Assembly (NCBI GenBank): GCA_011033025.1
Contig: WFMF01000263.1
Location: 179,391-243,390 of the forward strand
Direction of reading: 5' to 3'
DNA from: Beroe forskalii
Taxonomy: Eukaryota; Ctenophora; Nuda; Beroida; Beroidae
DNA length: 64,000 nucleotides
Shown: in pieces, positions 4,701 to 62,065 of the stretch
Numbering within the stretch: position 1 is the first letter of the stretch
How the letters are laid out: each line of letters begins with the position of its first letter
Notes under the pieces: generated by a model
Databases searched by the model: none
The model's input: only the letters and a program-made list of their open reading frames with translations
Told to the model about the DNA's origin: nothing
Program-made: the position numbers and the translations under genes

Positions 4701-7214
4701 GTGAGTTCCTTGCTGAGTGTCCCTCTGTATGTGTCATTGATTTTAGGGGGTTTTGGAAGCGGGAGAAAATGACTACAAGTCCACAAATGAAGGATTGATT
4801 CCCTTGATTGTTACTCTAAGTTCTCTTTGGTGAGTGATATCCAATGATACGATCTGTAGATTTTATTCCTTCACCTACTTGGCGTATCAAGTATCCCCAA
4901 GAAAAACAGGACCAACCTTATCCTCGGGTTGATCGTAGTAAACAAAGTAGGAGCAAAGCGTCCCCGAGAGCCCATCTCGGAGGACATCCCCCCTGACGAC
5001 GGACCCGGAGGAGGAGGGGGAGGAGGGAGTGATCCCTCCTCATCCCACCAGGACCCACCCGGGGGCTCGCTGGACCACCTCTCCACCTTCCCAACCGACG
5101 TTTCCATGCCACTCAACCTAGGAGGAGGAGGAGGAGGAGATGAAGCAAGCGATGATGACGGTTTGAATGATATTGACATGATTTTACGAAACAACCTCCC
5201 TATCGGGGAGGTGTCGACTGACGGCGCCGGGCACTGCAGAGACACATCCTCGCCGGATGCCGCGCTCGAAGCGGCGCTGGAGCAGGCGGTGGCGGCGGCG
5301 CCGGAGGAAGGCGCCGCAATGCGGGTCGTGCCGACCTACCACCCCTCGGACTCGACTAACTTCCCGGCGCCGGACACGCCGTATGGCTTCGTGGACGGGA
5401 AGCCCATCCTGTCCCCGCTCACTCCCCTCGCTCCTCCCGCTCTCAGCTTCCACCCGGAGGACGGGCCGAGCATTCCCGCGGGTTTTGCGACGGATTACTC
5501 GCCCATTTCCCCTGCTGCAAAACACGCTTTCCTCAACCCGCCCACCCGAACCTTCACATCGCCCCCAAACGTGCCCTTCAATGACGTTTCTAGTAACTAT
5601 AGCAACCAGCCGAACAACTTAATCAGCAATGGGAGTAACTATAGCAACAATTTTAGCAACACCGGTGGCAACCCTAAGATGCTGTTCCAGAGTAGCCACG
5701 CGGCCATGCAGCAGACCCCAAAGTCAGTGTATCCCTCCCATCAGGGAAGCCCTGGTTTTGTGAACTCTTCAGACAAGGTCCTGGGTGGTGGTCCACCCAT
5801 CAGGGGGTACAGACCCCAGAACCCTAACCCTCAGAACAACCCGCTAGCTGGGAATAACCCGCTTGCTGGGCCTCCTTCGGACCAAAACTTCAGTGATTTG
5901 AATAAGGCGCCGGGGGAGAACTTTGGGAACATGGAAACCAACTCTTTCACTCCGTCCGTGTCTCACATTCCGAATAACGTCCCTGCGCACATGGTAACCA
6001 CGCAAGCCTCCCTTCATCAGAACATGGTGCCATCCCCTCAGAAGATGGCACCCAGACCACCCCTCCAAGGATCAGAACCTGGCACCACGCCAGGCTTGGG
6101 CACACAAAGTCATGAATCCCGCCGTCCCAGCAGTTCCAACAGAGCATGGGAACTCTAAACACGCGCATGCCAGTTCATCAGCCACCCCCGATGGTTAGAC
6201 CAGCACAACAGCAACCACAGCAACGTCCCATGAACCCCATGATGCCCTTCTTCAGTACCCACCCTCCGTGGCACGCTGCCAACTGACCAGACCCTCCCAC
6301 CCCAACAACCAATGATGACGTCATCATCAGTCAGACTCCCCACTGCCGCCACGCCCAGAGAACGCATCCTGCTCCCCAGACAGACAGCCTCCCCTGTAAA
6401 TAAAGTAGACAACACACCACCACCCCCGCCAATGAGCCAGACCTTCAAAGCAGACAACATTCCTCAGCAGCAACAACAAGTGCTGAGGATGCAGAGCATG
6501 GGAAATGTTCAGAGGTTCATGGGAGGAGGGGGAGGAGGGATGGTGAATACCCATCAGTTGAGGGGTGCGGACATTGCTATTCCTCCTAACTTGTTGGGGG
6601 TTAGAGCCCCTCAGACAATGATGTCTGCACAGCAGCAAGCTGTTCTTAGACAAGCAGCTCTGCCGGCCAGACCGGGTGGTAATTTTACTGGACCCATGCC
6701 AGCTGAAACAATGTCAGCGGGACCTATGTCAGGGCCAGGAACTATATCTACTGGACATATGCCAACAGGACCCATGTCAGGGGGCACGATGCCTTTAGGG
6801 CAGATCTCAGGGGGACCAATACCCCCAGGACAAATGTCAGCTGTCCCTGTGTCCTCAGTACCAATGACTGTTGGAGGAGGTTCAATACACGGCGCACAGC
6901 AAGGTGATTACTTCAACCGGCCGCCTCCGCAACCGTTCCTTATTCCGGACTCCAGACAACCCGTCGCCATGGCGCCCGGTGCCATGTCTCATCGCCCTGT
7001 AGTGTATCAGCTCGGACCAAACCCCGGACACTTCTATCCTGGAAACATCGCCAACTCGACCGCCAAACCCAACACCGCCAAAGCTGCGTCTAATAAACGC
7101 AGTAGTAACATCAAAGCGAAGTTAAAATCGAAACTCGATCGGAACAAGAATACTCCGAAACCCTTTGACGGAGATTCGTTGCTCGCCCAACTTGAGTCGG
7201 CGGAAGTGACTTGA
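1767..7214 (+). CDS. DIDO1/PHF3/SPOCD1-family protein (TFIIS-central + SPOC domains), 3' part
   Basis: Exons by eye: 1767-1923, 2133-2228, 2422-2488, 2645-2759, 3010-3188, 3421-3500, 4321-4409, 4594-~4700, ~4892 to stop at 7212-7214. The first three encode a TFIIS central-type domain (EDEIVKIAQNIEMSLYKLF, then YKAKCKAICFNISDSKN, then SSEKLAKMSAEEM). A CxxC pair follows (FDVKCRKCTSKAP). Exons 5-9 encode a SPOC domain (LWKGYITMTSLTKFATSGY; NNIVWAYVDRLR; CGVIGNVTAPVRDMYLVPL), closed by NRTNLILGLIVVNK as in DIDO1 and PHF3. The remaining ~750 residues are low-complexity Pro/Gly/Met/Asn/Gln-rich with a basic end (IKAKLKSKLDRNK). Family members act in the nucleus on RNA polymerase II; SPOC binds phosphorylated CTD (family knowledge). 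The PHD region expected upstream is not seen. The 4700/4892 junction and the tail frame each show one-base problems. Confidence 0.85.
3920..3992. repeat. Short foldback repeat in an intron
   Basis: Arms of 14 bp (AAATAGGCGGTTAA at 3920-3933 and its reverse complement at 3979-3992) pair perfectly. A further ACGTCAT/ATGACGT pair lies just inside. The repeat sits in the intron between SPOC exons of the DIDO1/PHF3-like gene. It looks like a small MITE-like or foldback remnant; no target duplication is clear. Confidence 0.6.
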
Positions 7215-13565: not shown

Positions 13566-14322
13566 ATTTGACGAGCGCGCACGCACGTTGAACGAGTGCG
13601 CGCGCACGTTGAACGAGTGCGCGCGCACGTTGAACGAGTGCGCGCGCACGTTGAACGAGTGCGCGCGCACGTTGAACGAGTGCGCACGAACGTTGAACGA
13701 GTGTGCGCGCACGTTGAACGAGTGTGCGCGCACGTTAAACGAGTGCGCGCGCACGTTAAACGAGTGCGCGCGCACGTTAAACGAGTGCGCGCGCACGTTA
13801 AACGAGTGCGTGCGCACGTCAAACGAGTGCGCGCGTACGTCAAACGAGTGCGCGCGTACGTCAAACGAGTGCGCGCGCACGTTAAACGAGTGCGCGCTCA
13901 CGTTTAAAGAGTGCACGTTGATCGAGTGCGCGCGCACGTTGATCGAGTATGCGCGCACGTTGAAAGAGTGCGCGCGCACGTTGAAAGAGTGCGCGCGCAC
14001 GGTGAAAGAGTGCGCGCGCACGGTGAAAGAGTGCGCGCGCTTTTTGAATGAGTGCGCGCTTACGTTGAACGAGTGCGCGCGCGTTAAACGAGTGTGCCGG
14101 CGTTAAACGAGTGCGCTCGCGTTAAACGAGTGCGCGTGTGCGTTGAACGAGTCCGCGTGACGCGCGTGCGTTGAACGAGTCCGCGCGACGCGCGTGCGTT
14201 GAACGCGTCCGCGCGCGTTGAACAAGTGTGCGCGCGTTGAACAAGTGTGCGCGCGTTGAACAAGTGTGCGCGCGCGTTGAACGATTGGGCGCGCACGTTG
14301 AACGAGTGCGCGCGTGTTGAAC
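13566..14322. repeat. GC-rich 21-bp minisatellite (~36 units)
   Basis: Tandem units of mostly 21 bp containing GAACGAGTGCGCGCGCAC, diverging and changing length after about 14040. Because the period is a multiple of three, long stop-free frames exist on both strands: ECARTLN heptapeptide repeats on plus and SFNVRAH repeats on minus. These frames begin and end with the array, lack domains outside the repeat, and vary only as the DNA repeat varies, so I do not call a gene. Confidence 0.9.
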
Positions 14323-25081
<10,759 letters not shown>

Positions 25082-33500: not shown

Positions 33501-36500
33501 ATCAAGCTAAAAACTGATGCCAGTTCTGACCTAAAGTCAGAGCAATGTGCTGATACTGACCTGAAAATTAGTTCAGGGTTCATAAAAGCAGAAACATCGG
33601 AAGATCGGCTGAACTTGTTATCAACCCAAGAATCAGAGGATAAAATGAAACGAACCTCTTCGAAGAAAGCACCAGATGATACCAACACCGCTTTACAGAA
33701 CTCACCTGATCCATCCGCCTCACCAAGGTCTGTTGGCCTGGCTCCTACACCACTTGACCCTCCTGGATCCACCTCAATTCCTGAAGACCCAGCTGTTCGC
33801 TCCACCTCACCTTCTGTCAGTACTTCAGATGCCACCTCATATCCAACTCAACCATCCACTCCCACCGTGGCTTCTCTTGCCAGCACGGACTTTGATAGTC
33901 TCTTCATACTGGATTCCGATGAGGATACTGAAGAAGAGGGGAAGGGAGGGGGAAAGATGATCTGTGGGAGGGAAATCAGACTTGATCCTAAGCCTGATTC
34001 GAGTGTGAGTTATATAAGTTTTAGCGACTGATATGTTGATCAATTTCCTGCATGAATGCCCACAGTTGTTATTGAACTTACACCGATTAACTATGAGCAC
34101 ACTTACACGAATATTACAACTTCTCTGGTTTCGAATTATACCACACGCGCATGACATTGGTTTTTGAGTCATTGTTTTACAGTTAACTTTGAATTAACTT
34201 CCAGACTTAACTCTACCTGATACATCACTCTTAGGATTGGGTAAGTGACTCTCCCTTGAAGACGAAGAACTCCTCCTTTCCCTCCTCAACTCCCCTCACA
34301 TCCCAACTCCTCGTACCGTATCTCGAGTGGTGGTTACGTGTGCTGAGGGTGGTAAGGTGTGGGTGGTACCCCTGGATAAATACCCCTACATAAGGTGAGT
34401 GAGGGTGGTACCCCTGGAAAAATACCCCTATTTGAGGTTAGTGAGGGTGGTACCCCTGGATAAATACCCTTACATAAGGTTAGTGAGGGTGGTGCCCCTG
34501 GAGAAATACCCCTACTTTAGGTTAGTGTGGGTGGTACCCCTGGATAAATACCCCTATCTGAGGTTAGTGAGGGTGGTAACGTGTGGGTGGTACCCCTCGA
34601 GAAATACCCCTATTTGAGGTTAGTGAGGGTGGTACCCCTGAATAAATACCCCTATTTAAGGTTAGTGAGGGTGGTACCCCTGGAAAAATACCCCTATTTG
34701 AGGTTAGTGTGGGTGGTACCCCTGGATAAATACCCCTACATAAGGTTAGTGAGGGTGGTACCCCTGGATAAATACCCCTATTTGAGGTTAGTGAGGGTGG
34801 TGCCCCTGGAAAAATACCCCTACTTAAGGTTAGTGAGGGTGGTGCCCCTGGAAAAGTACCCCTATCTGAGGTTAGTGAGGGTGGTGCCCCTGGAGAAATA
34901 CCCCTACTTAAGGTTAGTGAGGGTGGTACCACTGGGTAAATACCCCTACTTAAGGTTAGTGAGGGTGGTGCCCCTGGAGAAATACCCCTATTTGAGGTTA
35001 GTGAGGGTGATAAATGAAAATACCCCATGTCCCCCTACTTGGGGTTAGTATGGGTGATAAGTTGGTAACCCTTGAAAAATCTCCCCGTTCCTACTAGGCA
35101 AGTTTGGCCTGGGTGGTATCTCTTGTCAATAGAGAGTGGGGTGTACCCTCTGATGTCTTCACCCCTACTTATGTGTGAACGTGTCATGAAGTATGATCTC
35201 ATTGGTCAATTAACAACACTCCAAAACACCCCTACTTGAGTTTCTCCAAATCTGTATGCGGAGAACTCTTATTTAGCAATTAGTAGCGCCATTACTTTCC
35301 TTCCCATGGGATTTGGCGGTGAACGGGTTTAATTTCGCACAGTACTCGATCTTTTTCCCCTTTGATATATCCACCTCATTTAATCTTCCCCAATACCCAC
35401 CACAAAACATGAAATTACGAAATATACCATACCAAATGAAATATGTAATTAGGATTATAATTGCCGGAATATTTCAGGAAGTACAGTAACATGTTACGTT
35501 TGACACATGTTGAGCTGGAAGGAGCTGTGTCAGAAGGTGACATGGTCATCCTACGAATAAACCAGGTATGTATAATGTTCAAGATACTTTCCAACTCCTA
35601 CTGTGGATTTCATTGGCGTTTTTCACGAAATTAACTGTATTTCAAGTTGATTTGGTTGGTCAAGAACATAAAATAGGGAGTGACTTGTTCTCAAAAGCTC
35701 AATTCCACTCAATCGTACGCCCATTTCTAGAAATATATCTAATTTCATTTGATTTGACTGTCATGTTACACATTATACCGGCTGATGTAAGTACAGTCTA
35801 AGAAAAACTTATATTTTCAGGCATTGAGTAATCTTACAGTTTGCAAGGCTGTATATCTGAGTTTTAACTGCCACAGCACGGTTTTGTAATGTAACACCAA
35901 TTCTTTGTAAACTCTAGCGTGTATTGTGAAGAAGTGTCTAAAGCTGAAAGCAGCATAGTAGAAAGTGTTTAAGCAAAAGTTACATGCACTATAACATCCT
36001 AACACGCAGGAATTTTCAATTTAAGGCAACCGACTTAGAATTGATTGTGCTAGGATATAATTGTAGAATTTGCATCAAAGCCTTGCAATTTTTCAGACTT
36101 TCTGCCGTGCCAAGGTGGTTGATGCGCAGTGTCCAGATGGCATGGTTACTGTGAAGCTGGTTGATATCGGAGAGGAGAGGACTGTGCATCGATCAGAGTA
36201 AATAGTGACATGAATTGAAAATATCAAAATGTTTCCAACATTTTAAGAACTTTTCTGTTTCTTTTTTTTCGAGAAGGTTTATTATGATGAACATTTTATC
36301 AGTTCATTCCTTCATGGAACCGATCAGGTACTCAATCTCAACTTTTTGCAATCAAATTTGATCTTGAGGCTATTGTTTTTACAAATCGTTTTCCCAGGTT
36401 GCTGGGAATGAACCGTACAAGTAACCTCGGATTACGACCCAGCCTCGCCACCTTACACACCCTGCACCAGTGTAAAGTGACAGATACAGCTCTCTTTGAT

Positions 36501-40752: not shown

Positions 40753-41806
40753 ATGGTGTTTTCCAGTTTTCCTCTTCATAAACTGATCGGTGAGCCAGAT
40801 TCCTGGAATGTTCTAATGCTAGGTCTAGATGGTGCTGGTAAAACAACCATCTTCCAGAACTTGCAAAACTCTCAGAATATCAGTAAACCTGAGCCAACAG
40901 TCGGATTCAATGTTGAAACTATTCAGTTATGCGAAGGTATGGAAACTTCAAAGCAATATTTCGACTGTCACTCACGATCATCAATTCCAATGAGATTTTT
41001 TCATGGAAAATCTCTCCGATTAATAAATTCGAATCGATTCCGGTCATTTTCAATCGACATTTTTGAATTTTGATTCCATATTTATTGGACTTAATATCTT
41101 AAATCTTAACTCGGCTCATTCGCAGGACTCAAATTTACGATGTGGGACGTTGGAGGTGGAGTGGAGATAAGGCAACACTGGAAGTACTACTATGTTACTG
41201 CTCAGGCACTTGTTTTTGTGGTGGATGGCAGTGATAAAGATAGACTTTCTGTGAGTTTAACTAACGGGTGATGACTTATTGATATTATCTGGGCAAATTT
41301 TAAGCCTTCTTTCGGTCTCGAGACAAATTTCAAACACATCAGTTAACTGACACATAATTCATTTGAAGTTTTATGTTTGATGTTTAACAATATTCCAACG
41401 TTAGGAAGCAGCAGAGGAATTGCGAGGTGTTTTGGAGCACCCAGAGCTTCCCAAGGGAGTGCCTGTTCTGATTCTAGTCAATAAACACGATCTACCATAC
41501 TCAGTGGTTCCAGAAACTGTGATAGAGAAACTGGAGCTAGAAAATTACAGGTTAATTTAGGAGGTTAATTTACAGGGTATTTTAGGAATTGCAGGTCATT
41601 TTGTTTATTTAATTTTCAATCGTATATGCCACAAGGGCCAAGAATACCATTGATAATCTGAAACTTAACTCCCCCTTTCTCCCAGGTTTAATTCCTGGCA
41701 TGTTCAGTGCTGCAATGGGTTATCAGGAACAGGACTGCATGAGGCAATGGAGCACTTGGGCAGAATTCTTGCGGAGTACAAGAGACAGAAACCCTCCGGA
41801 CGATAA
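40753..41806 (+). CDS. ARF-like small GTPase A, altered switch II (catalytic Gln replaced)
   Basis: Four exons, 40753-40936, 41126-41250, 41405-41550, 41686-41806; intron phases 1, 0, 2; 191 residues. The P-loop is intact (GLDGAGKTT), as are switch I (TVGFNVETIQL), the guanine motif NKHD and the SAK-like CNGLSGTGLHEAMEHL. Switch II reads WDVGGGVEIRQHW: the Gln of the usual WDVGGQ is Gly. That Gln is catalytic in ARF/ARL proteins (family knowledge), so slow or GAP-resistant GTP hydrolysis is inferred. The N-terminus (MVFSSFPLHKL) lacks Gly2, so no N-myristoylation is expected. An AATAAA at 41873-41878 follows the stop. GTPase B at 47.0 kb has the same intron phases, so the two look like paralogues. 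Confidence 0.92.
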
Positions 41807-41878: not shown

Positions 41879-44109
41879 AATCACATTCATAGATGAATAT
41901 TTCAAACGCAATTAATACAAAGATTTCCCACACTATAATTCTTAGACTTGTTTAATCTTTAAGCAATAACTTGAAGTCATTTTGAAGTAAGAAGTTCATC
42001 ACAATATCCAATAACGAATCAAATGATAGTGTGCACTGAACTATTGTTTTAACCACAATGAATTCAATAATTGGTGGAAACATATCTGGAAAGAAAAGGC
42101 GTTATAAAACAAAGGATTTGAACAGAGTAGTGGAATTTTAACATTTGCTTTGCAACTGCTTGACAAAACGTATAACATATGCATGAGCGAACAACTTCAC
42201 CGACTTCTGATTTAGCTACAGTCAAATGTGTTTTCAGTTTACATAATCAAGTGAAAGGTTATTCGTCACGATTGAGATGCAGCAGTAGGGTGTATGATGA
42301 AAAAGCACGAAACAACATTTATTAATAGTATTCATAACACTACTGGGTGTGGCGAGTTCGAGAAATGAGAACCATTCTGAAATTTCCAAGTCATGCGACG
42401 CCGGCCTGTACTAAGTGTTATTCTGTGGTTTATGGCAGTCTCCAAGAAGCCGAAATTCCACGGTGGTTGTCGGGCTTCTTGGAGACTGCCACATCCACGA
42501 GTCAACTTCAAGTTATAAATTGTTTAGATGAGCTGTGAAATCGCCTAATCTGTATCACTAAAGAATGCGCACCATCGAATCGCTAAAACTTTAAACTACC
42601 TATATAATATCAAGGACGTTAGCTGAGCTGAAAAGATAGCAAGTAATATCCATAGTAAACTGCAAAGTGGCTAACAGGCAGTAAGTCCTGCGGCCATTCC
42701 ATTACCATTATAATACCTAAATATTGATTTCAAAACAATATGTTATACATTGGGTGTAATTCATACATAATACATTGTATACTATACATCATTTACATCA
42801 TTGTCTAGTTGTCTACCTTCCAACCTTTGAATAATAACGGAATCCCGTTTTTATTTTCGCCACACCTCACATCTCATACCTCAACAACAATTATTACAGT
42901 TAGCACTTAGTTCTTGAAGAGGGTAGCTAGCTAGGTCGAATATAGCTTACGTGTCACTGGCCACGAGTACAGTCAACAACTCACATAAGTAGAGAAATTC
43001 TACAAATACGGCATTTCATAGTTTAGTACGTTTGTTTATTGCCGTTATATTGATTAGTTTCGCTGTTGCACCTATAACTATTATCAAAGCAGCACGAAAT
43101 TGAGCTTTCAATCTCTTAATATTCCATCTCGGTTGTGATACGTGGCTGCTGTGATGCTACGGAATCATCTGTGTCGAAGCTGCACCGCCTCACTTTCCCC
43201 AGACTCCTCAAGCATCAGATGAATGCATACCTGAAAGTAGAATTAAGGTGCATTATTCTGAATGGCAATATCCTGATCAGCATGAGATTTAAACTTGACT
43301 TGGGTACTTGGAAACGACTTCTAAGCAAACTGCAATACCGGCTAACCGGTAATTTTTGGCTTATCGAAATTGCAACCGAACATTTGAACTTAGGAAAAAA
43401 ACTGTAACCGAACATTTTTATTTAAATAAACTGTAACCGAAAATTTCACAATTCTCTCGAATCATTATATCATCTACCTCCTTAATTCTGCATACCTTCG
43501 TCAGAGTTCAGATTGGTACCTGCATCGACTCCACTTAATCAACCCAGAGCTCGATTCTTTGTCTACCATTTTGCCATCCTGAATCAGTGTGAAGTTACTG
43601 TGCGAAGAGGTTGTGCATATTATCTGCTAAGAATAAAAAGTATTCATTGTATGTTCATATCAATAAGACTGGAATTAAAATGAAAGGAATAACTTGAAAG
43701 TTATGGGCTAATAACTTTATTTTGATATGTGGAAGATGAATGATTTCATTTCTAAAACAACAGATAAACATTGAATCAAAACATTATTAGAAAGGCACCT
43801 TAGATAAAGAATGAAGCAACAAGTTGATCTCAAAATTTTATTAAGTTGTGAATAACATAATAAATAATCAAACAAATCGGTGAAATATTATCAATCATCA
43901 TTCTCAAATTTATTTAGCATCAATAAATTTTCAAATTTAAATAATACCATAATTGGCATCAAAAAAATATTCGAAATTTTCAGAACCAAATAATTAACAA
44001 AAATCTCAAAAAAATAAAAATTCTGAGATAAAATCCATCACACTTCAAAATTAGTCATGTCACAATATTGGTCATACTCATAGTCGTCCTCTATAATCAT
44101 TGTCTGAAT
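41879..44109. other. Intergenic region between ARF-like A and the isocyanide synthase fusion gene
   Basis: AT-rich, with one perfect hairpin (42433-42491). Open frames at 42347-42538 and 43135-43407 show no recognisable features. The last few hundred bases are likely 3' UTR of the minus-strand gene. Confidence 0.5.
42433..42491. repeat. Perfect 19-bp hairpin with 21-base loop
   Basis: TGGCAGTCTCCAAGAAGCC (42433-42451) is the exact reverse complement of 42473-42491. Stem and loop lengths are compatible with a small foldback or a small-RNA precursor, but nothing in the sequence shows transcription. Confidence 0.7.
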
Positions 44110-46458
44110 CTAATGTTTAGAATAGAACTTCTTGCCCATCTCCCTGAAATACTCCGGCACATTAGTAGTCGGGGGCACCAGTTGAACCCTCCATAACTCC
44201 CTCTCATTCGTAAACGCCTCCCTCCCATGCAGGGTCGTGTAGTTGTTCACATACACCTGATCTCCCTCCTCTGCCACGTACTTCAGGTAGAACCGGTCGT
44301 TAAACGCCATCTTTCGAACCTCAGCCTCGAGATCGGATTCAGAAACTGAGCTGGATTTTCCGGAGGATTTTCTGATTTTGTAGCTGACTTCTTGGACTGA
44401 GTTTGGGTTTTCAGAGCGAGTCCAGGACTGCTGCCATCTGAGAACGGGTTGGTGGGTCCATGGACAGTCCATTACCAAGGGGTAGGAGAAAGTGTTGCCT
44501 CGCCCACCCATGTAGAGAGACTTCTGGCTTTCTGCCGAGGCGTTCATGTTCATGTTTGTGTGTTTCGATGTAGCTTCAGCCCCAACTTGGTTCCTGTCTT
44601 CAGCCCCAACTCGGCTCCTGTCTTCGGCCCCAGTTCGGCTCCGATCCTCAGCCGCTGATCTCTTCCTGTCAATCAGCTTCGTCTCATAAGTCAGCTCAAT
44701 CTTCTCCCACTTCCTTGCAAGATTCCCCGGGATACTCAGCGCCACTCCTGCTGCATCTACAAACGTTGTTGGTCCTTTCCTTCCTTCCTGAGAGTTCCTG
44801 TGACAGTAAAGCAGGAACTCCCGGGGAGTAAAGTCCTCGTATCTGTGCTGGGATTGGTTGACTCCCATGTATCTGGGAGGGAAGGCTAGGTCCCAATGGA
44901 GGGGGAGGGGTCCTCGTCTGTTCACGATCCCTGGCTCCGAATTATCAAATCTCACTTTGTGAACAGGGCCGTGTTCCCAAGGGATAGCTCCGTGGGGGGA
45001 GTGGGCGTGGTACTGGGTGAAGAGGTCTTCTTCGCTGGTGAAGGGGCGGAATCCCTTCAGGACCACCAGTCCGAAGTGCTTTATCAGGGATGTCATGGTG
45101 GCTTGGTGGATCACGCTGGAGGGAAGGTCGGGGTTTTCTGAGGTGTTCTTGATGATCATCCCGCAGCCTTGCTTGATCAGATCAATGGAAAGGTCTTCGT
45201 CATTCAACTCAAATCCTGACTTTTCATCGATGACAACCCTAACCAGCAGCCATGGGTTTCCCTCAAAGTACACCGTAGTAATGAAGGATGACTCATCTTC
45301 TCTGTTCAGTAAGTCCTGTTTCCACCCCACCACAAACACATCTCCCTCTGTATCCAGCATGACTGTGTGATGCCACGGTGTCCTCAAGATATGTTCCTCC
45401 GTGCCGAGACAACTCCCAAACAAATCCACCGCAAACTTACCCTTACTGGGGTGATGAGCATGAATACTGATCCTGATGTAGTCCACCAGCATCTTCTGTT
45501 GCCTGAGGAAGGAATCCAGAGCTGCCCCCTGCGCCATCATTCCCACCACCACGTTCTTCAGGAACCGTTTGTTGGTCTTAGAATTGGGGGAGCTGCTCGG
45601 GAGTCTGGTTGCTAGGTCCGTTGTCATGAACTTCTTCATCTGTTTGTACCGTTCCAACATGGCCTCATCTTCTTTAATCAGCTCGTCGAAGCTCCCTGCG
45701 AATCCCTCCGGTCCGTAATCGCTGTACAGCTTCCTGGAGAGGCTACAGGTGGGAGTGTTCCGGAATTCTGGGAAGGAGGACAGGCTGACAACCCGGAATG
45801 TTGTCTCCCCGCCCATGCCTGCGATCATGTTCTTCAACCCAGCATGGTATTCCTGATAAACCTCCTCCTCCACACCCACATAATGATCGAAGGTGTGGTA
45901 ATCCGAGAGGATGGTGATCAGAACACCGTGTTTGTAGATCTTCTCAAGCTTTCGGGCTGTTCTCATCAGGGTTCGTAGAGCGATGAATTCACCAAAATCA
46001 ACGGTAGTTCCAAGGACTTTGCGAACGTCGTTTGAACTCTTGGCTGGGAATCCAGGTAGCATGAAGTCCAGCACTTTCTTCCTGATAAAAGATCAAACTT
46101 AAGAAATTTTAAACAAATTATTTTTTCTCAAAATTTTTCAAATTATCTGGACGAAAATTAAATTTTTCAAAAATCAAAGCGGATCATGATAAAAATACAA
46201 CAGAAAATCTAAACAGAAATCTTACCTGGTGACAAGATCAAGAATACGCTCAAAAAGTGAGCTGAAATGGTTGGCAGTGTACAATTTCTTGTAGTTATAC
46301 ATCCAGTCGTCAAGAATGATGTAGAAGATTTGCTTGACAGTGGAAATGATTTTCTCATCATATTTCTTCAAAATGTTGCGGTTGATATTAAGCTGTTTGA
46401 AATCACCGGAATCTCTTATGCCCGTTCCAGGAACGGACTGCGTTAGTGTGGATGCCAT
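44110..46458 (-). CDS. Isocyanide synthase - TauD Fe(II)/2-oxoglutarate oxygenase fusion
   Basis: Two exons, 46458-46226 and 46081-44110, joined in phase 2 by a 144-bp GT-AG intron; 734 residues. The N-terminal ~330 residues match PvcA/DIT1/IsnA isocyanide synthases: LPGFPAKSSNDVRKVLG, then ITILSDYHTFDHYVGVEEE, and RISIHAHHPSKGKFAVDLFG with TPWHHTVML. Such enzymes turn an amino acid and ribulose-5-phosphate into an isonitrile (family knowledge). The C-terminal ~330 residues are a TauD/PvcB-like oxygenase: FGLVVLKGFRPF, the metal motif HxD (PLHWDLAF) and the distal His with the 2-oxoglutarate Arg (TTLHGREAF, ELWRVQL). PvcB-type partners oxidise the isonitrile product further. A linker inside the oxygenase contains Ala-Glu-Asp-Arg repeats. 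No secretion signal is apparent. The substrate cannot be told from sequence. Confidence 0.88.
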
Positions 46459-47035
46459 AAAGCTTTATGAATAATCGTCACTGATGGAAAGATTGTGTTA
46501 ATGGTATGAATTAAATTATAAATCATAAGGTTACAAGAGAATGTCGATGAGGCCAAATTTTCGGCAAAGTTTTAGATATAATTATATTTTTCGCGTCAAA
46601 AGCAGTACAATTAGAAACAGTCATATTTGCTTGGTGTAGGATTTGTCCACATTTCGAGTTTTGGAGCATGATTTGACTAAACTAACCGAAAAGTGCAGGA
46701 AAGTATGGAATTTAACAAAACACAGTTTTCAAATTCAATGAAATGACTTATTATAAGAAGAAAAAGACGAACAATGAGTTTAATGTCATGATAGAGAAAA
46801 GAGAATGCTACAGTTTTTATCTTCTTATCAACATTGCTTATCAGCTTATGTAACCACTCTTATCTTGTTCAATGCTCATTCTAATGAATGAATATCACGT
46901 TTTTCTGTGTACTGAGAAAACACAATTATTCTGAGAAAAACTGAGTTATAATAGTGAACTTACCTGAATCGATTATAGGTTTTAGTGCAGCTATGACATC
47001 ATCGTGACATTTTCAACTTGAAGCATGGTAATGGC
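46459..47035. promoter_or_regulatory. Divergent promoter region of the fusion gene and ARF-like gene B
   Basis: 577 bp lie between the two divergent start codons. The region is AT-rich with no clear TATA box or known operator. It includes the 5' leaders of both genes. Confidence 0.35.
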
Positions 47036-48217
47036 ATGGGTTTGATTTTCTCGAGACTCTGGAATTCCCTTCATCAGATCCTCACAAGGGCTCCTGAGCC
47101 ATGGACAGTAATGGTTCTGGGACTATTCGGCTCCGGAAGGACCACAGTTGTGTATCATCTGAAATACAAGGAGTTCATTGATGTACCGAGCCTTCACAAC
47201 AGTTTTAATGTGGAGACTGTGGAAATTCGGAAAGGTGATTAGAGATAATCATTCTATCACGTTGATAAATATAATCGCGTCAAATATCCTTGTTTGCTGC
47301 TGGATTCTTCTTTGAGATTGAATCGTGGGGTTAAATATTCAATGATACTTGTGAAAATATGTGGGGAACGGACATTTCACCTCAAGACATTTGATTTCAG
47401 TGAAATTTCATGAAATTTCAGTTAAATTTCAATATCCATACCTCCCAGGTTTGAAGTTCACTCTGTGGGACATGGTGGAGAATAAAGCAATGAGGAGGCA
47501 CTACTACGACCGAGCAGATGGTCTGGTTTTTGTAGTGGACAGCAGTGACCCTCAACAATTCCCTGTATGATACGGAGTTCATACTATTTCGTTATCAGCC
47601 AGAGGAGGGAGCTACATTTTTTGCAAATTCTTAAGTGGGGGGGGGGTTCTTAAACTCTTAAATGAAAACTCAAAGTGCTGAACATTTATTTGAAAGTTAA
47701 TTTGAGATTAAGTTCATTTGAGATTAAAGTTAATTTCTATTCAATGATGCTGATATCTCCATCGGTATTGGGTATGATATTTATGTTTGAATCTCTCAAC
47801 AAATTGCAGGAGGCAGCTGATGAACTGAGAGAGATCTTGGAGACTCCTGAGTTCCCGGATGGAGTCCCAATCCTCATCCTGGCCAACAAACAAGACTTGC
47901 CAGATGCTGTAACTACACAGACTGTGGCAGAGAAGTTGCAGCTAAATTCGTTCAGGTTGGTTTGGGTGATCATTTCCAATCCGTGACCCCCTATCAATAA
48001 AGTATTAAGATAGATCCATTTTTCGATGTCCATTCTTGAATTTTTGGGTAAATCATTTCTTTTTGATCACACTTTTAGTTTTAATGTTTCAGTTCTGAAC
48101 AAATGGCACGTGGAAGCTTGCTCTGCTCTGACAGGAGACGGACTTCACGAGGGATTGGAACAGCTCCATCGCATGCTCACTGCAGAGATTGAGACCACAA
48201 TCCCTCACTCCTTCTAA
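47036..48217 (+). CDS. ARF-like small GTPase B, degenerate nucleotide-binding motifs (likely pseudo-GTPase)
   Basis: Four exons, 47036-47234, 47449-47564, 47810-47955, 48079-48217; intron phases 1, 0, 2 as in ARF-like A; 199 residues. The start MGLIFSRLWNSL gives Gly2 and an amphipathic helix like ARF1, so N-myristoylation is plausible. The P-loop is GLFGSGRTT, with Arg in place of the invariant Lys. Switch I reads HNSFNVETVE, lacking the normal Thr-containing TIGF. Switch II reads WDMVENKAMRRHYY instead of WDVGGQDKIRPLW, so both the Gly pair and the Gln are gone. The guanine-specificity motif NKQD and SALTGDGLHEGLEQL are intact. The fourth exon starts at the upstream acceptor (48079), which keeps the frame. 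The pattern suggests a membrane-anchored protein that does not hydrolyse GTP; this is inference. Confidence 0.88.
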
Positions 48218-57700: not shown

Positions 57701-60700
57701 AACGGATCTTGGGTAAACTGTCGATATTAGCAGGGGCTGTAGATTTACTGAGATTTATTTGAGTATTTGGCACGATACCTACACCCACCCCTCTTAATCT
57801 AAACGTTAGTCCTAAGGTTGAAGTGTCCAATAACCACCAATTCTTGAATCAGATCCAACAGAGCAGATCCAACAGAGCATTATAAATGCTCACGTGCAAG
57901 CTATGTACTTGAGAGTTGGATAATGAAGTCATCACCATAGATTAGAATGGTTAACTGATGACTTCACACACAGTGTAGTGACGTGTGGTGGTATTAACAC
58001 AACTCATAACCCACTCCCTCTCAAATACACTGCCTCCTCTAACTCCAGAGACTGGTACATTCTAGTGCCCTAGTATTCCATCTGTTCCATTGTAAGGAGA
58101 TATATCTACTAAGCTACTATACTGTCTCATATTCCATTATTCCATTCCTACACTGCACAACTATTGCCGATATCAGAATAGCATAACCACGGGTTCATTT
58201 GACATTATGAAAAACCAGCGCGCAAGATAACCGAAAATTTGCACGGTGATAATTAGTCAATTTCATGGCAATTTCATGCTTTTATTGGTAAGCTAATACG
58301 CCACCGATAATGATGTGGGATTTTAAGGATACAGTAATGATCCAGGCAGATGTTCTGGATCTGTGATAGTTATTTGAAAAAAAAACGTAGTATGTAGCCA
58401 TTACCCATTTCAATACAAGCACATCTTTTTGAAGGTAAAAAGGACTAAACAAGAACGCGAGAATCTCACAGATGATTAAAAATTGCTCATGTTTTTGGTT
58501 AAAAAAAGACATGATTTTTCAAAAAAATATTTTTTCAGAGAGAAAAAACACTTCTGTCTGATACAAACCATGGAAAAAAAAGAAGAGAGACTTCACCAGC
58601 TCCACTTGTAGACGTACACATGCACATTTGCCCCTAGTCACAGTATAATAATAGCGTGACTATAACACTCCCCTACCCACATGATACCTTCTTAAAACAT
58701 GGCAGAAGCCTACGAAGACCATAAAACAAACATACATCAGGGGCCTGTTTCTCCTGGCCCATGCTGTTCTGGACACTTTCTCTTCGGCCGATGGTGCCCA
58801 GCAGCCCACTGGCTCTCCGTCTCATGGCCTTATTCCTGAACTGAGAGGTGGGTCGGGCCATGTCCTGACCCACTTGGAAGTAGGGGTATTTCAGACATTG
58901 GGCGGCTGTAGGGCGCTTGTTAGGGCTCCATTCCAGGCAGTCCTTGATCAGTTGTAGGGCTTCAGGGCTGGCGTTAGGGATCAGGGTCTTCAGAGGGGTT
59001 GCAACCTGAGGAGAGGGGTAGGGTTAGGGATAAGTTGCAACCTGAGGATCAGGGTTAGGGATCAGGGTCTTCAGAGGGGTTGCAACCTGAAAAGAGGGCG
59101 AGGGTTAGGGATAGAGGGTTCCAGAAGAGTCGCAACCTGAGGGTTTAGTTCAGGAAATAATTATAGTTTAAATTTTAAACAGTTTAGAAGGTTTAAGGAA
59201 GGACTATGATCTGTTATAGAACATTAGAACAGAATTGTAGGAAGCAAGACATCTGATTTAACCACTGTCCTATGTCTAACCACTGTAACGCGTGACAACG
59301 CCCAAAGTGATCAGTCTATTTCACATGATCTCTTTGACTCAAACATAGCATATTGTGCAAGGAGCACATCAATTCAGCATTATAATCTCACAAGATGATG
59401 GTCATGTTGCAGCTCTTACTGTAATTTCACGACGTTTACTTGTTGTGAAACATAACAAGCAAATCATTCACATACGATAAGTCTTATGGTCAGCTCATGT
59501 GAGATTTATAATATTTCACATTGATATTATGATACACCACTCAGAGGGTCAAATATCACCACTTCATAGATGCCACTATTCGAGATAACTAGATTTGTGT
59601 CAAAAGGAAGCACGTCTGGTCGTGATAAGACACCATTTGTGTCTGAGATAGAGTGTTTTTACACACTTGATAAGTTTGTAAGTCTCCTCTCACACTTAGA
59701 AAGCTGTAGAAAGTGTGACTGTACATGTGAAGTACGCACTGCTTGCAACACTCATCTCGCATAATAACATCTCACTTTAACGGAATATCTCACTTAATAA
59801 CACATCTCACTCTACCGGAGTGATATATTGTGATTTCCTAATGATAAAGTTTCTATCTTACTAATAATACTCACGCATTGAGGGAACTTGAAGTTCATGT
59901 TCTGGGCTAGCTTCACTCCCTCCCTGCCCCCTTAACATACTTACACATTGAGGGAATTTGAAGTTCATGTTCTGGGCTAGCTTCACTCCCTCTGGCCAGT
60001 CATCCTTGGTTGGAGTGCCAAGAACTCTCACTATCCTGAAAATCTCGTCTACCTGGGATGAATCACTCATTAATATGATGAAATGATGTGTAATAGATCC
60101 ATTGCGTAAATAGCTGCTAAACTTTTGAAATTCGTTTGGAGAGCAGTTTTATCCCAGACAGAAGGGAATATCCAATGGAGAAGGGCATCAACGTTTAGAT
60201 TTAATAATTTAATAAGCACAGAACTTATTCTCAACAATATTCAATTATTCATGATAATTCCAACATCTGCCTGTCAAACCTCTGAGCTGCCCGGAAAGAG
60301 GGGTTTGAGGGAGTACAGCTCCGCCACAATGGCACCACACGCCCAGATGTCGATGGGGGAGCTGTAGTTTGTCGATCTGAGGATAAAGCTTTTAGAGACT
60401 CCATATGCCTGATTTCCTGACTCCGTCCCGATTTATATTTTGCCTTTTCCTTCAATTCACAAATTAACAAAATCTTAATAAGAGAGACATGGATGCCTTC
60501 AGCATCCCCAAAAATAAAAACATACCTGAGGAGGACTTCTGGGGCTCTGTACCACCGAGTGGAGACATAGTCGGTGTATGGGGGCCGGGACCTGATCTCA
60601 CGAGCCAAACCGAAGTCTGCGATCTTAACGTTCTCTGAGCCGTTACACAGGAGATTCTCGGGCTTTATGTCACGGTGAAAATACCCTGGGGTTTGCAGGG

Positions 60701-62065
60701 AGGCTTTATGTCACGGTGAAAATACCCTGGGGTTTGCAGGGAGGGTTTATGTCACGGTGAAAGTTATCATATTTTCATGAAACATTACTTAGGGCATTAT
60801 TTAGCGCATAACATCGTTAATCAGGCAAGCCTTACCATGTTTGTGCATGAATGAGAGTCCTTGGAAAACTTGGAACATAATGTTTCGTACCATGGAGTCT
60901 TGAAAATACCTGTTCCTGAAAACATAGAAACATATTGATTGATATATTCATTGTTCCAATGTTTCTATCTAAAATTACCAATTTTGAGTGAATGCAAATA
61001 ATTGGTAATCACATTAAATTCATGAGACTTGGATTATGCAACAATATTTTCTAAATTGAATATCTCAGCAAAAAGATAACAGATTATTTCTTCCAACTCA
61101 ACCAAGTATAAAACCACTAACAATGGTAGGTACAGTGGATCAGTTTGAAACAAAGATACCTATTCCTTAAGAACCTAGATTCCTTTATATAAAAACAACT
61201 AAATAGTTCAACTAAAATAAAACCGATCTCAAAATATTTGCTTATTTAAAAATAACAAGCTTTAAACATAAAGCAATTATTTGCTCACTTCTCATATCTT
61301 GCTTTCATCATCTGATATAAGTTTTCTTTCATGAATTCAAAGATGAAATAGAGGGTGTCATTTTCTCTAATTACTTCTTTCAGCTTGACAATGTTTGCAT
61401 GGTTGAGTTTCTTCAGTGACTGCAGGAAAAAGACTTATTCAGTTTCAAACAGTAGGTACCTATAATACCTAAAGCACTTATGTCAATAAAATGGAGTCAG
61501 CTGTTTGCAAGTATGCAATTAAACAGCACAAATTAAAGCAATACTTATTCTATCAGTGAGTATTTAATAGTCTCACCTTGACTTCCCTAAGGTCCATAGC
61601 TTCTTGCCAAGACTTGTATTTTCTCTTCATTCTGAAATGATTAAATACTAAGTTATTATAGCCTCTTGATCACTCGATCAAAGGAAAATTATGATGGGTC
61701 AATTGTTTTGGCAAGAAAAATTGAGGCAAACTTAAACAGTGAGACAGTGGACTTAGTCAACTTACACTTTGACAGCAACTTGCTCCCCTGAGTCCACATG
61801 CTTTGCCAGACAGACTGAGCCATATGTGCCTGAGATCACAATTAACATTATGTAGATATAAAGGTACCTTATTATTACATATAATGCATGTAACTTGAAG
61901 ATAGAATAATCCTTGTTTCTAAAAATATGGCAACACCTACCTGAATCTGAATCTACTGAATTAACAAGGTCCCAAACCTATCAAAGTTTTAAATGTAAAA
62001 GCTAGTTACTCACCATCTCCAAGAGCCCTACTAAGAGTGTACTTGTTTGCAACTGTAACTGTCAT
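50401..62065 (-). CDS. MAK/CILK1 (ICK)-family protein kinase
   Basis: Exons from the start: 62065-62014, 61829-61766, 61631-61577, 61419-61289, 60915-60836, 60685-60526, 60376-60280, 60052-59945, 59005-58736, 53300-53219, 52972-52827 (stop TAA). These give about 414 residues. Further 3' exons at 51724-51631, 50937-50818 and 50505-50401 (stop TGA) look like an alternative C-terminus. Kinase motifs: [36 protein letters not shown] and the dual-phosphorylation TDY loop [16 protein letters not shown]. These are diagnostic of MAK/CILK1 rather than MOK (TEY). The tail [12 protein letters not shown] resembles the conserved end of CILK1/MAK. These kinases act in cilia, controlling length and intraflagellar-transport turnaround (family knowledge). 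Short tandem duplications touch three exons. How the two C-termini are spliced is not resolved. Confidence 0.9.
51730..52015. repeat. Irregular tandem repeat upstream of a kinase 3' exon
   Basis: Repeated AAACACCCTTATAAACACGA and variants, interspersed with GGGAGGGGGAGGG tracts. It begins a few bases before the acceptor of the minus-strand exon 51724-51631. The composition is strongly strand-asymmetric. Confidence 0.75.
52190..52305. repeat. Two-copy tandem duplication of about 58 bp
   Basis: The block GTTTAGGGGGTAAATTAGTA followed by CAGAAAGAATACCTGATAAT occurs twice with minor changes (about 52194 and 52252). It is non-coding, between 3' exons of the kinase gene. Confidence 0.7.
54645..55702 (-). 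mobile_element. Non-LTR retroposon insertion with 13-bp target duplication
   Basis: AACTTTAACTCAT flanks both sides (54632-54644 and 55703-55715). Just inside the left flank is a T14 run, which is a poly(A) tail on the minus strand, as left by target-primed reverse transcription. The element is about 1.06 kb with a GC-rich tail part (54658-54810). The minus-strand frame 55285-55097 shows no recognised motif. It may be a 5'-truncated LINE or a long SINE. Confidence 0.65.
57649..57702. repeat. CCAAT-containing inverted repeat
   Basis: TGACCAATCAGTGCGCGAG is mirrored almost perfectly by CTTGCGCGCTGATTGGTCA, within larger imperfect arms (AAGATCCCAAAAC and ATCTTGGG). It lies in the large kinase intron and resembles the CCAAT motifs at 26980-27125. 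Confidence 0.6.
58978..59110. repeat. Tandem duplication of a kinase exon 5' end with its acceptor
   Basis: The stretch GATCAGGGTCTTCAGAGGGG followed by TTGCAACCTGA (exon start and acceptor on the minus strand) occurs at 58978 and again at about 59053. A shorter, diverged third copy is near 59118. Confidence 0.8.
59880..59999. repeat. Tandem duplication of a kinase exon 3' end with its donor
   Basis: CATTGAGGGAACTTGAAGTT through CTAGCTTCACTCCCTC occurs at about 59876-59925 and again at 59946-59992. The second is the true exon end (FKFPQC then gtaagt on the minus strand); the first is a near-identical downstream copy with donor-like gtgagt. Confidence 0.85.
60660..60762. repeat. Tandem duplication of the kinase HRD-exon 5' end
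   Basis: GCTTTATGTCACGGTGAAAA through CCCTGGGGTTTGCAGGGAGG is present at about 60662-60704 and 60704-60746, with a third partial copy to 60762. Each copy includes a splice acceptor and the code for the start of the catalytic loop (YFHRD on the minus strand). Confidence 0.85.

Follow-up and report, generated by a model that had tools for sequence, protein, structure and literature searches.

On the minus strand of the analysed DNA of the ctenophore Beroe forskalii (a 64-kb stretch, hereafter termed the window), positions 44110-46458 carry what is, with a probability that we put at roughly 70%, a native single-copy nuclear ctenophore gene encoding a bifunctional isonitrile-forming enzyme of predicted activity. 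Its spliced product of exactly 734 amino acids unites an isocyanide synthase (ICS) domain and a TauD/PvcB-type Fe(II)/2-oxoglutarate (2OG) oxygenase domain in a single frame with the ICS part first, i.e. the ICS-DOX fusion architecture. Coordinates, length and domain order agree with the original prediction, which had omitted the strand. On sequence and structural grounds, the protein is probably a working enzyme of a known kind, encountered, as far as found, in an unexpected and seemingly uncharacterised place, an animal.

The gene model comprises two exons. Exon 1 (46226-46458, minus strand, 233 nt; start codon at 46458-46456) encodes an N-terminal extension of amino acids 1-77 and supplies the first two bases of codon 78; this exon is spanned by the alignments with homologues such as P0001 and P0002. 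Exon 2 (44110-46081, minus strand, stop codon included) contributes the last base of codon 78 and amino acids 79-734, and encodes nearly all of the ICS domain and the whole TauD domain. Between them lies the spliceosomal intron that had been predicted (46082-46225, minus strand; 144 bp, phase 2), with GT-AG borders (GTAAGA...TTTATCAG) and a GC content of 21.5% (78% AT). Removal of this intron is required, since the unspliced frame contains five in-frame stops (codons 79, 95, 107, 120 and 122) and the exon junction is crossed without gap by all six relatives aligned beside the protein. Three AATAAA/ATTAAA signals are located approximately 200, 270 and 390 nt 3' of the stop codon.

The ICS domain (amino acids 74-329; 45328-46239, minus strand, a span interrupted by the intron) matches the Pfam family DIT1_PvcA (PF05141) with 165.8 bits (cut-off 26.4) over profile positions 3-260 of 273, and the oxygenase domain (amino acids 403-710; 44185-45108, minus strand) matches the Pfam family TauD with 55.1 bits (cut-off 27). 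Residue conservation was assessed in an alignment of 105 proteins (P0062 and L045-L081 were left out), 60 of them bacterial and 45 eukaryote-like, the latter being a class to which 41 members (all other than Beroe, P0056, P0010 and P0043) were assigned by tree position alone. As presupposed by the original prediction, the conserved ICS residues are in place: at 14 of 14 tested sites (K92, N95, K99, D106, E109, S137, D138, F142, R281, S283, H285, P313, W314 and H315) the Beroe protein agrees with the bacterial consensus, and each of these residues is presumed, from the alignment, to be catalytic. H285, P313 and W314 are present in all 45 eukaryote-like and all 60 bacterial rows, K92 in 44/45 and 59/60, respectively, with gaps in the remainder; the position of K99 is occupied by Q in 21/60 bacterial rows. 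The conserved ICS blocks are also visible in the alignments with PvcA and PIsnA. In the TauD domain, the HxD motif (H473/D475), the distal histidine (H696) and the 2OG/substrate arginines (R705/R709) are retained, as had been read from the sequence before, and all five tested TauD sites correspond to the bacterial consensus. H473 is found in 38/45 eukaryote-like rows (6 gaps, 1 R), D475 in the same number (6 gaps, 1 N) and H696 in 35/45 (10 gaps); the rows with gaps in this triad are mostly records that end early. A loop of the domain contains an in-frame 24-bp minisatellite (44574-44653, minus strand) encoding an 8-aa AEDRSR-like repeat, which is absent from 18/18 aligned relatives and at which the model confidence is <50.

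For the exon-2 part (656 aa), the predicted structure reached a pLDDT of 88.0 and a pTM of 0.87. The closest solved relatives by sequence are PvcA, PIsnA, P.IsnB and PvcB, and the same four lead by fold: in the predicted structure, the ICS part adopts the PvcA/IsnA-type fold and the oxygenase part is closest to P.IsnB/PvcB. The substrate anchors reported for P.IsnB, Trp74 and Arg265 (PMC9467999), correspond to Beroe W446 and R709 (positions counted on the alignment). Two further P.IsnB positions, K107 and N188, are said to forecast the product (K/R and N/H for vinyl, L and C for acrylate; PMC9467999). The Beroe residues at these positions, P479 and Q628, match neither the vinyl nor the acrylate rule; at position 628, ten different residues occur among the eukaryote-like rows.

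Isonitriles are reactive small molecules that bind metals. In PvcA-type isonitrile formation, the nitrogen of L-Trp or L-Tyr is combined with a carbon from ribulose-5-phosphate (PMC7949033). Domain 1 of the Beroe protein would likewise join a ribulose-5-phosphate carbon to the amino nitrogen of an L-amino acid to form an alpha-isocyano acid; L-tyrosine would be the most likely substrate, since crystals of the nearest solved relatives contained tyrosine or its isonitrile. Domain 2 would then employ Fe(II), 2OG and O2 for a benzylic oxidation and desaturation resulting in a vinyl isonitrile or an isocyanoacrylate. A benzylic cation, with the carboxylate either lost or kept, has been proposed for the desaturation by P.IsnB/PvcB (PMC9467999), and the IsnB-like half of the Beroe protein may proceed by such a cation, with or without carboxylate loss. 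The product probably serves in chemical defence, microbe control or metal binding, a role proposed by analogy with microbial isonitriles.

The window forms the end of a 243,390-bp contig (C318) in an assembly of 216 Mb and 1134 contigs. The COX1 of this assembly (contig C1134) has, as judged by eye, AGA/AGG at conserved arginine positions and reads through TGA, in line with genetic code 4, which non-bilaterian animals use. Translated with this code, it shows 100% identity to B. forskalii COX1 over 507 residues; among the best 120 of 8000 matches listed, other rows reach at most 89%, and the ctenophores Tjalfiella and Vallicula (61%) are the next named animals. By this one mitochondrial contig, the window comes from B. 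forskalii or a very close species, which NCBI assigns to Ctenophora, Nuda. The gene is positioned well inside this contig, with Arf-family exons on either side (40753-41070 and 46997-47983, plus strand) and protein-kinase exons farther along (58676-60710, minus strand; the second of the two is under the Pfam cut-off), in keeping with the animal gene neighbourhood described originally. A short dispersed host repeat (46586-46685) begins 128 nt upstream of the start codon and has matches of 75-78% on contigs C614 and C444; searched against the assembly, a 4.2-kb query with the gene gave three matches, namely itself and two short ones (~100 bp) on these two contigs. Another dispersed host repeat (42341-42426) is located ~1.7 kb past the stop codon; a 4.7-kb query beyond the stop codon yielded at least 41 matches including itself (40 of 90 candidates scored), and 38 of the 40 non-self matches fell on this repeat. 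The GC3 of the gene (0.62) compares with 0.36-0.65 in seven further stretches of the window that are presumed to be coding. The whole assembly contains one PF05141 match, and no second or allelic copy of the gene was found in it. No biosynthetic gene cluster was seen round the gene in a Pfam scan of 16 chosen window frames, eight of which had matches (four Arf, two kinase, one glutaredoxin-like, one tandem-repeat/low-complexity) and eight none.

Several other features of the window and the genome were recorded. The Arf-like exons that flank the gene (46997-48217 and 40753-41070, plus strand) include one (46997-47242) with a P-loop reading GLFGSGRTT, i.e. with Arg where Arf proteins presumably carry Lys. 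Exon-like frames at 18513-18740 and 23369-23605 (plus strand) resemble PTEN phosphatase by eye, and their HCKAGK motif is taken by us to be PTEN phosphatase-like. Long tandem arrays at 13571-14314 (21-bp unit, 35.6 copies) and 34357-35009 (42/126-bp unit) fall where both strands have long open frames, and large GC-rich open frames of Pro/Gly/Gln-rich content, without Pfam match, are located at 4929-7214 (plus strand). The Beroe genome also encodes another type of TauD-family protein (L095, G000:C708:2510-3286; 303 aa, hydrophobic start), a copy of which (L094, G000:C447) contains a TAG stop; L093 resembles, by eye, the animal trimethyllysine-dioxygenase type.

Among the 8000 candidates sharing most words, the sequence search revealed 42 related proteins; the profile search gave 35, 20 of these new. 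The Beroe protein is 35-67% identical to 35 eukaryote-like rows of the sequence search. P0056, from the jellyfish Rhopilema esculentum (LOC135683069), is a 391-aa record covering the ICS domain only, as do some other eukaryote-like records; P0010 and P0043 are EukProt entries, the former with both domains. Three proteins of the family each are encoded on contigs of 3,820,149 bp (P0013/16/28), 1,814,027 bp (P0009/20/26) and 112,716 bp (P0008/22/33), which suggests local paralogue clusters and an expansion of the gene family, perhaps in jellyfish. P0055, P0035 and P0049, in which oxygenase residues are lost or the ICS domain has an internal deletion, are possibly mono-functional or decaying paralogues.

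Bacterial relatives, with Calothrix among the best, show 23-30% identity over the best segment; the bacterial loci were found by one peptide pattern, and 80 of 227 were retained. Among the candidates scored, the nearest named bacterial relative is Vibrio nigripulchritudo P0036 (33% identity), the oxygenase of which is degenerate (HxN, and Met replacing the distal His). In a ranking by similarity to the fused query, which favours fusions, 41 of the 43 top bacterial loci (L002-L044; exceptions L021 and L043) encode both an ICS block and an HxD...H triad within a single frame, and most of the later loci (L045-L081) match the ICS part only. What had been stated originally on the fusion holds for its occurrence in fungi (Lim 2018, PMC5974471), whereas the usual separation of both genes in bacteria is not borne out by the loci so ranked. 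A viral or plasmid vector was considered and rejected: viral contigs contained no relative (31 stretches fitted a pattern, 0 were confirmed), none was found in phages, and plasmids gave seven records, among them one that aligns to 96% of the exon-2 query with 25% identity. The matches listed in the sequence, profile and bacterial-locus searches included no protein labelled fungal.

All trees were unrooted and included no fungal sequence; a group denotes one side of a branch. In the first, quick tree of 76 rows (L021, L043, P0062, P0041 and 26 redundant bacterial loci dropped), the 45 eukaryote-like rows were grouped with an SH-aLRT of 97, and together with P0036 of 100. Later trees were calculated from chosen rows. 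The full-length tree (37 rows) separated 22 eukaryote-like from 15 bacterial rows with a support of 99/98, joined P0036 to the eukaryote-like side (100/100) and grouped Beroe with P0001-P0005 (100/100). The ICS-only tree (55 rows; 100/99) and the TauD-only tree (34 rows; 100/100) both placed the eukaryote-like proteins and Vibrio apart from the other bacteria; as they give the same split, both domains have travelled together. The homologue search and phylogeny of both domains, as suggested with the original prediction, thus group Beroe with eukaryote-like proteins including Rhopilema and apart from bacteria save one Vibrio. Because this split is shared by both domains, the lineage most likely acquired the gene in fused form, as judged from the trees, from a bacterial donor in the distant past.

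The position of P0036 varied among the trees: it was placed weakly inside the Beroe group in the TauD-only tree (85/55) and outside it in the ICS-only and full-length trees, and both P0036 and P0039 were flagged by the tree program as long branches of unsure place. A transfer of the gene from an animal to Vibrio is possible because of the branch position in the TauD-only tree. Twelve "cnidarian-like" rows as a sole clade were rejected (AU test, p 1.2e-05), P0029-P0031 nesting among them in the best tree; a clade of these 12 rows with P0029-P0032 was not rejected (p 0.213). The trees are compatible with one or two acquisitions by ctenophores and cnidarians. Our judgement is evenly balanced on whether comb jellies and scyphozoan jellyfish share, through ancient gene capture, one animal clade of fused isonitrile-forming enzymes and produce isonitriles of their own from amino acids.

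Two-domain ICS-DOX proteins have been described in bacteria and fungi (Lim 2018, PMC5974471); one clause of that paper puts outliers in "oomycetes, plants, and metazoans", and the organisms named in its section 7 comprise oomycetes, one amoebozoan and one moss. The fused proteins treated there (cholerae IsnAB, A. fumigatus IcsB, XanB) have the domain order, the Pfam families and the key residues in common with the Beroe protein; the latter differs by its animal host, spliceosomal intron, exon-1 N-terminal extension and separate tree group, and is ~23-33% identical to the bacterial fused proteins. In contrast to the fused Beroe protein, P. aeruginosa PvcA/PvcB and Photorhabdus PIsnA/PIsnB are separate proteins, and they deviate from it at the forecast positions (P479, Q628). 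ScoE-type Fe/2OG oxidases, which are not known to contain a PvcA domain, have a lower similarity to the Beroe protein. In this type, one non-heme iron oxidase forms the isonitrile alone (PMC7949033). Yeast Dit1 (formyl tyrosine, spore wall) shares PF05141 with Beroe but is without an oxygenase domain, and reportedly does not act as an isocyanide synthase (PMC7345447). The isonitriles of marine animals, mentioned originally as a speculative link, do not support a connection with the enzyme: those of sponges are mostly terpenoid, with isonitrile nitrogen and carbon derived from cyanide (PMC4728513), and have no link to it. Among the matches listed from open-licence PubMed Central (titles and abstract starts), no paper on an animal ICS was present; subscription papers and preprints may differ. 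The words "horizontal", "lateral gene transfer" and "dioxygenase" are absent from the Beroe ovata genome paper.

The product cannot be deduced from the fold, as yeast Dit1, a member of the same Pfam family, reportedly yields N-formyl tyrosine and not an isocyanide (PMC7345447). Domain 1 might accordingly be a Dit1-like variant whose N-formyl tyrosine arises either directly or from the isonitrile by hydration and would then be oxidised or cross-linked, e.g. in a protective matrix; this is unlikely, though to be reckoned with. Formyl tyrosine has been reported as the most likely product of yeast Dit1 (PMC7345447), and N-formyl tyrosine is accepted by P.IsnB and PvcB (PMC9467999); however, yeast Dit1 is single-domain (Lim 2018, PMC5974471), the Beroe TauD domain is closest to P.IsnB/PvcB, which act on tyrosine isonitrile, and in Phycomyces a stable tyrosine isonitrile was detected and attributed to the fungus's Dit1-like protein (PMC13005658). 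An intact gene of changed chemistry, with another amine or amino acid as substrate or a TauD domain now hydroxylating, appears distinctly improbable, as Beroe retains every other conserved or anchoring residue that was tested; in its favour are the variability of the P.IsnB N188 position among the eukaryote-like rows, the Pro at the K107 position and the expanded, lineage-specific loop of the TauD domain. Some relatives have lost TauD residues (P0055, P0049), yet a decaying or non-functional relic is very hard to reconcile with an intact 734-codon frame in which the key sites are kept, at an identity of 35-67% to 35 eukaryote-like rows.

The presence of a relative in Rhopilema, which is not known to be luminous, argues against a part in coelenterazine biosynthesis, a barely credible reading even though a non-heme iron enzyme acting on tyrosine is predicted here in a ctenophore listed as luminous. 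Ctenophores are thought to make coelenterazine from Phe-Tyr-Tyr, and B. forskalii is listed as luminous (PMC4488382); in the same paper, isopenicillin-N-synthase-like oxidases, other candidates, track luminosity, and by word counts "isonitrile" and "isocyanide" are absent from it. As to a contaminant, symbiont gene or misassembly, a marine Vibrio (P0036) comes closest among the named bacteria, at 33% identity; these sources were nevertheless ruled out, being next to impossible in view of the intron, the 243-kb contig, the host repeats on both sides, the single locus, the host-like composition (GC3 within the range of other coding stretches of the window) and the named animal relative. The original prediction had likewise argued against simple contamination.

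A native bifunctional isonitrile-forming enzyme is thus the reading that we prefer. If active, it would be the first characterised animal-encoded isonitrile-making enzyme, as far as the open-licence papers listed show, and a case in which animals have domesticated a fused biosynthetic enzyme of microbial type. This would suggest that soft, unarmoured plankton animals (comb jellies, jellyfish) are genetically equipped to make small molecules that bind metals, act against microbes or serve as deterrents. Should the clade shared by comb jellies and scyphozoan jellyfish be real, an animal-encoded route to the isonitrile, a group hitherto credited to bacteria, fungi, plants and sponges, would exist in two plankton phyla.
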